DNA of 30,765 bases, from IMG/VR virus record IMGVR_UViG_3300047300_000198, positions 1-30,765 of that record; one strand, written 5' to 3'. Shown here in pieces: positions 24,516 through 30,547 of this stretch (its first letter is position 1; the number at the start of each line of letters is the position of its first letter). The notes below the pieces were generated by a model. The model made no database searches. It was not told the DNA's origin and saw only the letters and a list, made by a program, of their open reading frames with translations. A program made the translations under genes and the position numbers. The stretch is from a virus.

Positions 24516-25371
24516 AAATATCATAGTAACAACCTGCAAGAGTGGGGATAAATTCTTAATGATGTCTGACGTGCACTGGGATAATCCTCACTGCGATAGG
24601 AAGCTCCTTAAAGCTCACTTGGATAAGTGCTTAGAAGAAAATATCTACTTCGCTGTGAATGGTGATTTGTTTTGTGCTATGCAGGGCAAGTACGATCCTC
24701 GCAGAAGTAAGAATGACATCAGACCTGAGCACAATGTAGCTAATTACTTAGATGCTCTCGTTAACACAGCTATAGATTATTTTAAGCCTTACGCTCACCT
24801 ACTTGTATTCGTGGGCTATGGTAATCATGAGACAGCCATAACTAAGAACTGTGAAACTGATTTAATTGAGCGCTTTGTTAGTGGGTTAAATCGTGAAGCT
24901 GGCACTAATGTATTGGTAGGTGGTTATGGTGGATGGTGGATACATAGAGTGATGAAGTCTAAAAATTCTTCTGTAGTTTTTAAGACTAAATATTATCATG
25001 GATCAGGTGGTGGAGGAGTAGTAACTAAGGGAGTAATCCAAAACAATCGAATGGGTGTTATGATAGATGGCGCTGATTGTATTTGGAGTGGGCACGTACA
25101 CGAGCTTTATCATCATGCCGATATGGTAGAGGAACTGTCCTATGCTCATAATGGAGGCTACAAAATCAACATGAGATATGTGCACCACATTAGAACAGCA
25201 AGCTATAAAGAAGAATATGATGAGGGCTACATGGGCTTTCATGTAGAGCGCATGAGACCTCCTAAGCCATTAGGTGCTTATCTGATGCAATTAGATTTAC
25301 AAAGAGTTAGGAATGAGCGTGTTGACACTTGCATAATTGTTCCTAACTTTGTGCAATGGCGCGACAAATAG
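24490..25371 (+). CDS. Calcineurin-like metallophosphoesterase
   Basis: The 293-aa protein shows the metallophosphoesterase set in order: SDVHWD (Asp27, His29), NGDLF (Asp59), GYGNHETA (Asn112, His113), YYHGSGGGG (His170) and WSGHVHELYHH (GHVH at 201-204). It likely binds two metals and hydrolyses a phosphodiester or phosphomonoester. It overlaps TerL by 16 bases, so both are co-translated. In phages such proteins may trim DNA ends or act on nucleotides; the substrate is not evident. Its start lies inside the preceding gene. Confidence 0.85.
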   Translation: MITSYREGRNIIVTTCKSGDKFLMMSDVHWDNPHCDRKLLKAHLDKCLEENIYFAVNGDLFCAMQGKYDPRRSKNDIRPEHNVANYLDALVNTAIDYFKPYAHLLVFVGYGNHETAITKNCETDLIERFVSGLNREAGTNVLVGGYGGWWIHRVMKSKNSSVVFKTKYYHGSGGGGVVTKGVIQNNRMGVMIDGADCIWSGHVHELYHHADMVEELSYAHNGGYKINMRYVHHIRTASYKEEYDEGYMGFHVERMRPPKPLGAYLMQLDLQRVRNERVDTCIIVPNFVQWRDK

Positions 25372-26675
25372 AATACAATTTTAAGCCGCTAACAAGGCAA
25401 AGCGAAGCACTTAAATTTCTTTCTGTAGATTCAGATGTAGAAACTATCCTTTATGGTGGAGCAGCAGGCGGTGGAAAGACTATGCTCGGCTGTATGTGGC
25501 AGATACTTCGAAGATTAAAGTATCCAGGTACACGCTCGCTTATTGGCCGAGCTAAATTAGACACGCTCAAGAAAACTACAATGGCTACCTTCTTCCAAGT
25601 AGCTCATGAGATTGGTTTAAAGGCAGGAGAAGATTTTATCTATAATCAGCAATCTCACATTATTAAATTTAGCAATGGATCAGAAATAATCTTAGCTGAT
25701 TTATTCCTATATCCATCTGATCCCATGATGACTGATTTAGGAGGGTTAGAAGTCACTGATGTATTCATAGATGAGGCTACAGAGATAACTGAGAAAGCTT
25801 ATAGCATTGTCAGCTCACGTATCCGGTACAAGCTTAATGAGTTTGGATTAAAGCCTAAGATTCTGCTCACTTGCAATCCTTCTAAGGGATGGATATACAA
25901 TCAATTCTACTTACCCTATAAGAATCATAATCTACCTTCACATAGAGCTTTTGTTCAAGCACTACCTGGGGATAATATACACTTACCCGATAGCTATGTT
26001 ACAAGCCTTACCCGATTACCCGAAGCTGATAGAAAGCGCTTGCTTGAGGGAGACTGGGAATTCGATAATAGCTCAGATAGATTGTACATGTATGACGAGC
26101 TGATTAGATGCTTCAGAGAGCCAATGAATGTGGGTGAGGGATACATCACAGCAGATATTGCGCGTTTGGGTAAGGATAGAACTGTGCTTTGTGTATGGAA
26201 GGGATTAAGCTGTATTGATATCATTATTCTTAAACAGAAGCGACAAGATGAAGTTAAGGCAGAGATTCAGCGCCTAATGAATCAGCACCAAATTAAACTA
26301 AGCAACGTGCTCGCAGATGCTGATGGGGTGGGGGGTGGCCTTGTTGACAGCTTACGATGCAGGGAATTTTTGAACGGCAGTAAAGCTGTTAGAGGTAATC
26401 AGTACATGAATTTAAAAGCTGACTGCTACTTTAGATTAGGCGAGCTAATAGATAAGAATGAGATTACTCTGCCTATCAAATATCAGGAAGATATAGTTAA
26501 AGAGCTTGAGTTAGTAAGACGTGTTGATCCTGATAAAGAAGGTAAGCTAAGAGTAACATCTAAAGATACCATAAGCCAGCGCACCGGTGGCATCTCACCC
26601 GATATTGCTGATGCTATTATGATGCGAGCCTACTTTGAACTCAATAGAAATTACACTAAATACGCATTTATTTAA
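25356..26675 (+). CDS. terL: Terminase large subunit
   Basis: The 439-aa packaging motor has Walker A GGAAGGGKT at 34-42, Walker B VFIDE at 136-140, the coupling motif TCNPS at 172-176, and an RNase H-like nuclease domain with candidate metal residues Asp267 (ADIARLGKDRT), Asp321/Asp323 (ADADGVGGGLVD) and Asp416 (GGISPDIADAIMM). It cuts concatemeric DNA and pumps it through the portal. It lies 3.5 kb from the TerS-like gene rather than next to it. The gene is followed by a 330-base non-coding region. Confidence 0.95.
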   Translation: MARQIEYNFKPLTRQSEALKFLSVDSDVETILYGGAAGGGKTMLGCMWQILRRLKYPGTRSLIGRAKLDTLKKTTMATFFQVAHEIGLKAGEDFIYNQQSHIIKFSNGSEIILADLFLYPSDPMMTDLGGLEVTDVFIDEATEITEKAYSIVSSRIRYKLNEFGLKPKILLTCNPSKGWIYNQFYLPYKNHNLPSHRAFVQALPGDNIHLPDSYVTSLTRLPEADRKRLLEGDWEFDNSSDRLYMYDELIRCFREPMNVGEGYITADIARLGKDRTVLCVWKGLSCIDIIILKQKRQDEVKAEIQRLMNQHQIKLSNVLADADGVGGGLVDSLRCREFLNGSKAVRGNQYMNLKADCYFRLGELIDKNEITLPIKYQEDIVKELELVRRVDPDKEGKLRVTSKDTISQRTGGISPDIADAIMMRAYFELNRNYTKYAFI

Positions 26676-27005: not shown

Positions 27006-27350
27006 ATGAAGAATGAAGAGGCACTCATTCAAGAGGCTGTTATTAACTATTTGGTAGCTCAGTACCCTAAGGCTCTTTACTGTGCTTCAGCAGGTGGGGT
27101 AAGAACATCCATGAAGCAGGCTGTGAAGATGAAGAAAACAGGTTACGTTAAAGGCTTCCCTGACATCTTTATCTATGAGCCTCGCAAAGAATGGCATGGC
27201 TTAGCCATTGAAATGAAAACAGCTAAGGGTGTGGTGAGTCAGAGTCAGAAGGAATGGAGAAAGAATTTAGATCAGAGAAATTACATGGCATTTATTTGCC
27301 GAAGCTTTGATGAAGCCAAAATAGTAATAGATGAATACCTGGCGCTCTGA
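27006..27350 (+). CDS. VRR-NUC domain nuclease
   Basis: The 114-aa product resembles VRR-NUC (PD-(D/E)XK-type) nucleases of phages. Motifs: EEALIQEAVINYLVAQYPKA, GGVRTSMKQAVKMKKTGYVK, GFPDIFIYEP and GLAIEMKTAKGVVSQSQKEW, giving the D...ExK pair. It probably cuts structured or branched DNA, for example during recombination or replication. The start at 27006 is preferred over an in-frame ATG at 26988 because MKNEEALIQEA is the usual family start and an upstream promoter-like box lies between the two. Its end overlaps the sigma-like gene. Confidence 0.75.
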   Translation: MKNEEALIQEAVINYLVAQYPKALYCASAGGVRTSMKQAVKMKKTGYVKGFPDIFIYEPRKEWHGLAIEMKTAKGVVSQSQKEWRKNLDQRNYMAFICRSFDEAKIVIDEYLAL

Positions 27351-27831
27351 ATTCGATAAGTGCTATCCCGAATGGCGCAGAGTAGCATTTAGTGTAGTGC
27401 GCTCAGATGTCGCTGACGAGTTACTTCATGACACACTTCTTAAGATATTAGAATCAGATAAGGATAAGCTCGCAGATATTCACAAGAGAGGTAAGCTTAA
27501 TAACTATGTGAGCAACAGTATTAGGCTATCAGCTCGCTGCACGAATAGCTCATTCAATTATACGCTAAGAAGATTCGAAAAGATACGCAATGATCTGCAA
27601 GATGATATTATAGATGATGTGAATAAGAGTGTGGGGATGCGCTTAGAGAATGAGCAGTTAGATATCTTTATTAGTCGCTTACCTTACTTTGAGCGTGAGC
27701 TATTCTTTCTTTATGCCTTAGATGATTTCTCTTACCAAGCTTTGGCTAAAGAGACCGGTATACCTTTAGCGTATCTTTACAGAACTATTCAGAAAGCGAA
27801 AACTACACTTAGAAATTCACTACAGATATGA
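27331..27831 (+). CDS. ECF-like sigma factor (late transcription regulator candidate)
   Basis: This 166-aa protein has a sigma-70 region 2-like segment (VAFSVVRSDVADELLHDTLL and KLNNYVSNSIRLSARC) and a region 4-like HTH (LPYFERELFFLYALDDFSYQ, ALAKETGIPLAYLYRTIQKA, KTTLR). Such compact proteins resemble ECF sigma factors and Bacteroidota phage RNA polymerase sigma subunits. It would direct host RNA polymerase to phage promoters, plausibly late ones. It overlaps its neighbours by 20 and 4 bases. There is no adjacent anti-sigma gene. Confidence 0.7.
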   Translation: MNTWRSEFDKCYPEWRRVAFSVVRSDVADELLHDTLLKILESDKDKLADIHKRGKLNNYVSNSIRLSARCTNSSFNYTLRRFEKIRNDLQDDIIDDVNKSVGMRLENEQLDIFISRLPYFERELFFLYALDDFSYQALAKETGIPLAYLYRTIQKAKTTLRNSLQI

Positions 27832-28339: not shown

Positions 28340-28528
28340 ATGATACTAACCATTTACATTATAGGATTTCTATTACATACAGGAATCCTCTCATTAAACA
28401 TTTACAGACATCAGAGGCACTTATCTAACTACCATTGGTATGCTTATGTGGGTGTAGCATTTACAGGGCTTGTATGGCTACCTTTTTGGGTATACATATT
28501 AGTCTTACGTTTTCAACAGAGAAAATAG
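28340..28528 (+). CDS. Small two-helix membrane protein, 62 aa
   Basis: Two hydrophobic segments (ILTIYIIGFLLHTGILSLNI and VGVAFTGLVWLPFWVYILVL) separated by RHQRHLSNYHWYAY and ending in a basic tail. It is the last gene before the large non-coding region. No family is recognised. Confidence 0.6.
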   Translation: MILTIYIIGFLLHTGILSLNIYRHQRHLSNYHWYAYVGVAFTGLVWLPFWVYILVLRFQQRK

Positions 28529-28563
28529 TTTTGCACAGATATATCTCGTAACATTTTTATATA

Positions 28564-28571
28564 TAGATTTG
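28564..28571 (+). promoter_or_regulatory. Promoter-like -7 element TAGATTTG
   Basis: TAGATTTG fits the Bacteroidota -7 consensus TAnnTTTG, four bases upstream of the first structured strand (28575). The expected -33 TTTG was not found; a TTTTG lies at 28529-28533, somewhat too far. GTAAC (28548-28552) and GTTAC (28571-28575) form a small inverted repeat around it. Confidence 0.5.
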
Positions 28572-28985
28572 TTACAGGGTGTGATTACTGTTAGCATATT
28601 ATTTGATTTTAGGTTATACGCCCTTTGGATGTTTTCACCCTGCATCCTTAGGGCTATATTTTTTACGGGCGGAAGCGATTAACGGCAGCGTAAAGAATGA
28701 ATAGAGCTACTGTGGGATAGTAACACAGCTCAGGGGTATGGCTAAGGTATAAGCCCCAGGTTACTTAGGGAGGGCAATCTCTCTAAAAGATAGATACCAT
28801 GTTAGTGCACATTGCTGATGACACTAACTCATAATGGCGAAGAACTCAAGCGACAAGCAAAGAGACAGTCATTTAAATGAGAGCCCAACACATTGAGAAA
28901 TCTTTGTGCTTGGATACTTCTATCTCTCATTTAGCTCAGAATCTAAGCTCTAAGCATAGAGTTAATAGCTAAAGCTTAAAGCTAA
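28572..28985 (+). ncRNA. Candidate large structured non-coding RNA (about 410 nt)
   Basis: At least eight helices can be drawn by eye: GCCCT/AGGGC with GGATG/CATCC (28620-28654), whose loop CACCCTG (28636-28642) can also pair with CAGGGTG (28575-28581) as a pseudoknot; TTTACG/CGTAAA (28662-28694); a bulged hairpin at 28704-28731; GGCT/AGCC with GG/CC (28735-28757); TTAGGGAG/CTCTCTAA (28765-28786); CCAT/ATGG with GTTAGTG/CACTAAC (28797-28837); TAAATGAGAG/CTCTCATTTA (28874-28933) capped by CCAA-CACA/TGTG-TTGG and a GAAA tetraloop (28897-28900); AGCTCTA/TAGAGTT (28946-28963). It is not tmRNA, RNase P, 6S or tRNA by any motif I can see. The 5' end is set by the promoter-like TAGATTTG, the 3' end by the AT-rich tail. 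Confidence 0.6.
28615..28664 (+). terminator. Hairpin plus T run, alternative terminator
   Basis: The GCCCT/AGGGC helix is followed by TATATTTTTT, which resembles an intrinsic terminator. If so, it would end the upstream operon or a roughly 90-nt RNA. It competes with the TTTACG/CGTAAA stem, whose 5' arm includes the last T residues. This could be an attenuator. Confidence 0.35.
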
Positions 28986-29011
28986 TTACACTAATAGTTA
29001 AACTAACTAAT

Positions 29012-29371
29012 ATGCAGAATATACGTAGAACAATTATCAGGAGTGTTTTAGCCTTAGAGAAGATAAGCTTTGATTATGATGGAACATTAACTAATTCTCA
29101 AGGGCTGTCGCTGATTAAGAGAAAGATTACAGAGGGATATGACGTTTATATCATAACAGCAAGAGGTGAGGGAAGGAAAGGGCCTGTATTAGATTTGGCT
29201 AAAGAATTAGGCTTACCAGCACGTAAGGTAATCTTTGCAGGATCAAATGCTAACAAGATTCTTAAGATTAAGACTCTAAGCATATCTAAGCACTATGACA
29301 ATAATCCTGATGTGATTAAACGTATTAATGAAATGACTAACGCAGAGGGTAAATTGGTGAGCTATGAATGA
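29012..29371 (+). CDS. HAD-superfamily phosphatase-like protein
   Basis: The 119-aa protein has the HAD motifs: FDYDGTLTNS (Asp21 nucleophile, Asp23 acid/base), IITARGEGR (Thr49, motif II), a Lys-bearing segment near RKVIFAG, and KHYDNNPDVIKRIN (Asp95, motif IV). It may act on nucleotides or as a polynucleotide-type phosphatase; the minimal size fits small phage HADs. It overlaps the next gene by eight bases and is preceded by the structured region. Confidence 0.78.
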   Translation: MQNIRRTIIRSVLALEKISFDYDGTLTNSQGLSLIKRKITEGYDVYIITARGEGRKGPVLDLAKELGLPARKVIFAGSNANKILKIKTLSISKHYDNNPDVIKRINEMTNAEGKLVSYE

Positions 29372-29790: not shown

Positions 29791-30140
29791 TATTAATACC
29801 GGCACAATTAGAATCAGTAGGTACTCGAAAGGACAAAACTCTTAAACTGACCTTTGGCACTAACGAGCTATCACCAGCACAAGCAGCTGAACTGTTCGGT
29901 ACTGCCAATCAGTTCGGATACTTAGCATTCAAAGATGAGAGCTTCAGGAAAGAAGAGTTAGATGCTGTTGAATCGCTGAAATCAGAGTTAGAAGATACAA
30001 TTAAGAAGCCATCACAAAGATTAAGGGGTATTTTATTCAGATGCTATGAGGCTGATAGTGAAGGTTTTGTTACATTTGCTAAATACTATGACTCTAAGAT
30101 GGAGCAATTAATAACACATTTTAAAAATAAGTTAGCATGA
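29787..30140 (+). CDS. Hypothetical protein, 117 aa
   Basis: Start at 29787 (ATGA with the previous gene) gives MILIPAQLESVGTRKDKTLK then LTFGTNELSPAQAAELFGTA and FGYLAFKDESFRKEEL, plus KKPSQRLRGILFRCYEADSE. This layout is familiar from Bacteroidota phages and prophages, near packaging or recombination genes, but the activity is not known. An ATGA overlap couples it to the TerS-like gene. Confidence 0.6.
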   Translation: MILIPAQLESVGTRKDKTLKLTFGTNELSPAQAAELFGTANQFGYLAFKDESFRKEELDAVESLKSELEDTIKKPSQRLRGILFRCYEADSEGFVTFAKYYDSKMEQLITHFKNKLA

Positions 30141-30547
30141 GTGAAGAGGACAAAGGACAAAATGTAACTATCAAAAAAGATGCTATGCTTCAGGCACTTA
30201 CATCTACGCTGGGTAATGTTACAGAGGCTGCTGAGAAGATTGGTATAGCGCGCAAGACTCATTACGAATGGCTCAAAGATGATCCTGAGTATAAAGCAGC
30301 AGTAGACTCACTGAAGAACGTAGCTTTAGACTTCGCAGAATCGCAGCTTAAGAAGCTCATGGAAGGAGCAGAGCGCCAAGCATTAACTCACGATGGTGAG
30401 GTGGTAACAATTAAAGATGCACCTAACACAAGTGCTGTTATCTTCTATCTTAAGACTCAAGGTAAGCAGAGAGGGTACATCGAAAGACAAGAGCTGAGCA
30501 CAGAGATTAAGAGCATTAACATTACAATAGATGGTACAAACATATGA
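30137..30547 (+). CDS. Terminase small subunit-like protein
   Basis: The 136-aa protein has an N-terminal HTH (MLQALTSTLGNVTEAAEKIG, IARKTHYEWLKDDPEYKAAV) followed by helical residues 55-90 and ends with TKTQG-like segment (VIFYLKTQGKQRGYIER). Small terminase subunits bind packaging sites in DNA through such an HTH. The gene lies immediately upstream of the tail chaperone. The stop is shared as ATGA at 30544. It could also be a transcription regulator, but context favours TerS. Confidence 0.6.
   Translation: MSEEDKGQNVTIKKDAMLQALTSTLGNVTEAAEKIGIARKTHYEWLKDDPEYKAAVDSLKNVALDFAESQLKKLMEGAERQALTHDGEVVTIKDAPNTSAVIFYLKTQGKQRGYIERQELSTEIKSINITIDGTNI

Follow-up and report, generated by a model that had tools for sequence, protein, structure and literature searches.

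The question raised by this locus is what occupies an apparently gene-free gap in a viral genome. In the window (i.e., the whole stretch of virus DNA that was analysed, positions 1-30,765 of record IMGVR_UViG_3300047300_000198), this gap separates the open reading frames at 28340-28528 and 29012-29371, and a preliminary description, made from the sequence alone, had assigned to it a large structured non-coding RNA, perhaps of a new class. Homologue comparison and folding place such an RNA, about 390 nt long, at 28575-28961 on the plus strand, so that the coordinates first proposed were right to within a few bases, with a repeat (X2) extending the RNA to 28961. The claim that the region has no coding frame also stands: there is no ORF of at least 60 aa within the gap, and among 30 aligned homologues ATG frames reach 47 aa at most and lie on varying strands; indels across these homologues occupy single columns for the most part. 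A hidden gene was rejected because the frames are short and without conservation. The plus strand folds better than dinucleotide shuffles of its sequence (z = -2.46, with 2 of 100 shuffles equally good), as one of the originally proposed checks had asked, and an RNA on the minus strand was rejected for its weaker fold (z = -1.29). Together with the covariation considered below, these results argue that the gap holds an elaborately folded non-coding RNA, whose gene, some 390 nt long, probably has a TAnnTTTG promoter of its own. The features of the RNA are as follows.

28564-28571 (+): Bacteroidota-type -7 promoter-like box (TAnnTTTG), here TAGATTTG
28575-28642 (+): leader pseudoknot pk0, 28575-28581 with 28636-28642, in 30/30 homologues
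28620-28664 (+): leader hairpin, 28620-28624/28650-28654 plus 28627-28631/28643-28647, then a U-rich run; terminator-like
28657-28699 (+): P1, 28657-28667/28689-28699, enclosing GGCGG...ACGGCAGC; 2 double-changed pairs in the lineage
28704-28731 (+): P2, GAGCU/AGCUC, with conserved loop ACUGUGGGA; invariant in the lineage
28719-28765 (+): pk4, 28719-28724 (AGUAAC) with 28760-28765 (GUUACU); from the 44-member comparison
28733-28757 (+): P3, GGGGU/GCCCC, with loop GGCUAAG; 2 double-changed pairs in the lineage
28746-28798 (+): pk5, 28746-28750 (GGUAU) with 28794-28798 (AUACC); from the 44-member comparison
28766-28785 (+): hairpin H5, between the 3' strands of pk4 and pk5; 2 double-changed pairs
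28801-28828 (+): hairpin H6, with invariant loop CACAUUGCUGAUGA; paired in all, one-sided changes only
28855-28864 (+): direct repeat X1, AAGCAAAGAG; 9/10 match to 28952-28961
28875-28932 (+): H7 (28875-28883/28924-28932), enclosing GNRA-capped H8/H9 (28885-28913)
28952-28961 (+): direct repeat X2, AAGCATAGAG, from the X1/X2 comparison; the RNA probably ends here

Relatives of the downstream HAD-like protein are encoded by 45 viral contigs, and some of these contigs (L004, L005, L009 and L010) have the same RNA. A scan with an invariant 16-mer yielded 29 homologues, which with the window make 30 sequences. RNAalifold, applied to five sequences, detected double-sided changes at 14 pairs. A hand-built structure of 80 pairs, including three pseudoknots, was 97.2% paired when evaluated over the 30 sequences and also had 14 pairs with double-sided changes; with the partners slid, pairing fell to 35-47% and no more than 4 pairs showed such changes. 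Shuffling the letters of the 3' strands gave a mean of 11.3 double-changed pairs, and 20 of 500 shuffles reached the observed 14, such that the excess in this measure is modest. The cells with a double change numbered 99 against 27.7 in the shuffles, and none of the 500 reached either this count or the covariation score of the structure, bearing out the covariation that had been named as a check. Compensatory changes occur in six helices (pk0, the leader hairpin, P1, P3, H5 and H8), and P2, pk4, pk5, H6 and H7 are nearly invariant within the lineage of the window. Because P2, pk4 and pk5 scarcely vary there, the support for these three comes from the wider family only.

The core of the RNA (28657-28798) is formed by two interleaved pseudoknots (P2/pk4 and P3/pk5), with P1 ahead of them. 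Its helices were evaluated in 44 members that share little sequence, by comparing a fixed helix search with the same search on shuffled flanks. The resulting z scores were 14.0 for P1, 6.4 for P2, 2.7 for pk4 and 3.5 for pk5, and 0 of 60 shuffles did as well for pk4 and for pk5; P3 alone (z = 1.3) was not significant across these divergent members. The RNA of the window fits the order P1, P2, pk4, P3, pk5, with the ACGGCAGC and CUGUGGGA loops, of a wider RF02932-like superfamily, a grouping defined in this analysis. These core-defining pseudoknots went unnoticed in the first reading, and the one that it singled out lies in a separable leader. Beyond the core, the H6 loop CACAUUGCUGAUGA (28808-28821) is the same in all 30 homologues and contains UGAUGA.

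The leader begins with the promoter-like box, which the preliminary description had located correctly and which reads TAnATTTG ahead of the RNA in 30/30 sequences. A sigma factor gene (phrog_1740, 27331-27831) lies just upstream of the RNA, and its product might read a TAnnTTTG-type box. The 7-bp pseudoknot of the first reading (CAGGGUG/CACCCUG in the window) recurs as pk0, of 7-10 bp, in all 30 sequences, and its strands differ among them (e.g., UAUGUGUGA/UCACACAUG, GGGUGAG/CUCACCU and UAUGCGUGAG/UUCACGCAUG); this check was made independently of the exact alignment. The leader hairpin has 4 pairs with double-sided changes among the 30 sequences. A search for terminator-like sites found one against 0.2 expected, in a register that differs from that of the leader hairpin.

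The leader and the core are not always found together. The core is absent from L002, L003, L006, L007 and L008 despite their similar HAD-like proteins, and these core-less relatives have the same promoter-like box and pseudoknot-hairpin leader (e.g., CAUGCGACA/UGUCGCAUG). The different DNA behind this leader, an alternative cassette, was found in 42 contigs; the loci that have it are L002, L003, L006, L007, L008 and L291-L332, with the promoter-like box ahead of nearly all copies. Direct reading of its frames indicates that this cassette, which lies upstream of the HAD-like gene, encodes MANITHLSKSKLSNQ or variants; a second short frame of about 50 aa, with a hydrophobic Phe/Leu-rich tail, overlaps the first. 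The idea that the cassette is a second RNA was dropped, since it reads as protein-coding with two overlapping tiny frames. Because the same leader precedes a coding cassette, the 5' pseudoknot would belong to the start of the transcript and not to the RNA core: pk0 probably lies at the 5' end of the transcript, and the comparison indicates that the leader pseudoknot hairpin is a separable module. Close relatives do without the core, so it cannot be essential in this phage group; it resembles a dispensable cassette that can be exchanged.

Downstream of the core, H7 is 99% paired and H8 has 3 double-changed pairs in the 30 sequences. The GAAA-capped hairpin of the preliminary description was also recovered, its tetraloop (28897-28900) being GNRA in 30/30 (GAAA in 17, GCAA in 8 and GUAA in 5). 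In most family members, the region 3' of the core begins with GGCUCC and X1, continues through a spacer that contains a large hairpin, and closes with UCACC and X2, where X is a phage-specific direct repeat of about 8 nt (8-10 nt) that differs between RNAs. Across the family loci, the mean common word of X1 and X2 is 5.96 for an RNA's own pair vs. 3.03 for mismatched RNAs. Among 27 RNAs, the X word has exactly two copies per RNA, its complement occurs within the RNA at chance level (13.59 vs. 13.60), and copies elsewhere in the locus are not in excess (27 vs. 23.8). That X pairs with an internal guide, or is a site repeated elsewhere, was rejected given this lack of excess. In the window, AAGCAAAGAG and AAGCATAGAG flank hairpin H7, match at 9/10 positions and are likely to represent repeat X, with the GGCUCC and UCACC flanks absent.

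Whether the RNA constitutes a new class depends on its relation to RF02932 (Betaproteobacteria-1 RNA), an sRNA without known function. At gathering thresholds, Rfam gave no match in the whole window; below them, RF02932 matched 28658-28761 with 36.0 bits (gathering score 49.4; E = 2.6e-5 to 4e-5, and 4.4e-7 in another search). Rfam matches to suhB, CRISPR-DR32 and SNORD121A had E-values of 0.6-2.6 and were taken as chance. Relatives were sought by their loop words, for which a strict exact pattern replaced a looser one that was swamped by chance coding matches. Several tens of viral contigs contained them, as did 31 bacterial genome stretches from Paraburkholderia, Caballeronia, Burkholderia, alphaproteobacteria, Bacteroidota, and Methylococcales and Nitrospina MAGs. 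All 22 of the 22 pattern-found viral contigs matched RF02932 at E<=1, with only 5 above gathering, and the Rfam gathering score recovered an RF02932 match in only 1 of the 10 member loci scanned.

The reciprocal search used a covariance model built from 24 cores of the window's lineage only and covered 50 pre-selected loci. The model gave 30 matches at E<=10, of which 20 had E below 1e-3; the matches coincide with RNA sites and most run the full length, and full-model matches included L213 (2.7e-14, the best), L214 (1.5e-13), L178 (6.5e-10), L219 (7.3e-10) and L187 (1.7e-9). Because the 50 loci were picked by loop words, part of each score is built in, but their full-length extent is not. The matches include other phages and proteobacterial and Bacteroidota genomes, so that the covariance-model search suggested at the outset succeeded beyond the window's own lineage. 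Neither the window RNA nor any of six family RNAs had a BLASTN match among isolated phages. By this comparative evidence, the core is homologous to RF02932 though not a member by the Rfam cut-off, and the window RNA represents a divergent branch within a superfamily that extends beyond the Rfam entry. Members of this family occur in phages, in prophage-like elements and on some chromosomes, across several bacterial phyla. The suggestion of a new class thus survives in part: the RNA falls outside RF02932 by gathering score, but its core shares ancestry with that family. Neither RF02932 nor this RNA was found by name in the literature, of which coverage was incomplete, and parts of this account may be published.

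The genes around the RNA vary across the family and include DnaB, HNH, PD-(D/E)XK/Rad52, portal, integrase and Paraburkholderia housekeeping genes. In the window, the operon starting at 29012 encodes a HAD-like protein and then a small-terminase-like protein (30137-30547); the large terminase gene (25356-26675) lies 3.5 kb from the latter, with the RNA between them. A fixed partner gene and a terminase-linked packaging RNA were both rejected because, although terminases are near in the window, neighbours vary family-wide. In three alphaproteobacterial genomes (L213, L219 and L234), the RNA follows a tyrosine integrase at a distance of about 0.8-1.2 kb. Paraburkholderia copies are preceded by what reads as a sigma70-like TATACAT box. 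Up to five copies occur per genome (in one Paraburkholderia genome), with four on one contig; multi-copy or truncated Paraburkholderia loci include L226/L241 (G051), L216, L217, L230 and L232, and two truncated copies are broken at the same point, after GGCGAAGTTA.

The varied neighbours, the convergent genes and the five copies in one genome favour an independent RNA that acts in trans, as opposed to a gene-specific leader, and the conservation of unpaired words across phyla points to a conserved partner or to catalysis. With confidence that we would put at about even, we propose a structured RNA gene whose stable, knotted core acts in trans through its conserved loops and whose 5' end is protected by pk0. 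Located at or near the transcript start, pk0 would shield that 5' end, and the core, acting in trans as a stable RNA, would fix the unpaired loops GGUCGG...ACGGCAGC, ACUGUGGGA and GGC(G/U)AAG in a set arrangement. Through these loops the RNA may bind a partner found in many bacteria, for which a conserved host protein or RNP is the likeliest candidate, and the phage would profit from this binding; the variable repeat X would adapt the RNA to some feature particular to each phage. This trans-acting RNP model does not account for the match between X1 and X2. An unlikely but serious alternative is that the RNA is a cis-acting leader, i.e., the 5' UTR of the operon at 29012, whose transcription or translation it would control in the manner of an attenuator or an antitermination RNA. 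It would account for the terminator-like hairpin with its U-run, for the alternative coding cassette behind the same leader, and for the codirectional downstream gene seen in 19/24 viral loci as well as in the window; however, downstream genes vary among lineages, Paraburkholderia copies adjoin unrelated genes, and the nearest downstream gene is convergent in 5/12 genome loci and 5/24 viral loci (10/36 loci having one).

Another alternative is a ribozyme or selfish element, in which the core would cut and join RNA (or guide DNA cutting) at X1/X2 and spread without a protein of its own. The X1/X2 copies, near-identical within an RNA, different among RNAs, exactly two in number and not enriched elsewhere, are as expected of such an element, as are the multiple and truncated copies at unrelated Paraburkholderia loci. 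We nevertheless regard it as improbable: even at permissive E-values, an Rfam search of the region returned no intron or ribozyme family, X has no internal complement as a guide strand would give, and no recombinase or reverse transcriptase is consistently beside the RNA in the family loci. The bolder version, in which a knotted RNA spanning phyla carries its 8-10 nt word twice as a programmable address or a cut-and-join site and would be an RNA-only mobile or RNA-guided element, is a long shot. We give the least credence to a structural phage RNA of the GOLLD/ROOL type, forming RNA-only multimers late in infection. GOLLD and ROOL are large pseudoknotted RNAs of phages and prophages with unknown function (PMC12286853), and the features reported for RNAs of this type (phage-borne, ornate, pseudoknotted and probably dispensable; PMC12286853, PMC7567579) are in keeping with those seen here. 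Against this, the window RNA is shorter, has a different core and no tRNA neighbours in the window, tRNAs near other members are only sporadic, and Rfam gave no match to either RNA at gathering in the whole window or at E<=10 in 28400-29100, in agreement with the earlier reading that nothing ties it to them.

Among other known RNAs, neither ARAGORN nor Rfam detected a tRNA or tmRNA in the window, and a group I or II intron was rejected, there being no Rfam match at E<=10 and the RNA sitting between intact ORFs. The P4/P1-type regulatory RNAs of phages and the satellite ncRNAs are also phage-encoded non-coding RNAs with short repeats around a structured RNA; the present family differs from these in that the RNA holds no complement of its repeat and the surrounding contig has no further copies. 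Antisense RNAs of phage leaders have also been mentioned (PMC7567579). The closest likeness is to RF02932, with which the window RNA shares GG.CGG...ACGGCAGC, ACUGUGGGA and GGC.AAG in the same order, along with P1 and P2, in a match that spans the full 120-position model. This match stops short of the 3' strands of pk4 and pk5 and of the 3' domain, and does not display the two interleaved pseudoknots; in addition, the window RNA is set apart by a 5' leader pseudoknot, by the H6 hairpin and by an altered 3' domain that lacks GGCUCC...UCACC. RF02932, filed under one bacterial class, thus captures just the one bacterial branch that databases have so far recognised within a much broader group of RNAs from phages and mobile elements; annotation at the Rfam gathering score misses most members, and the knotted core and phage-specific repeat provide the structure, boundaries and mutants for functional tests.
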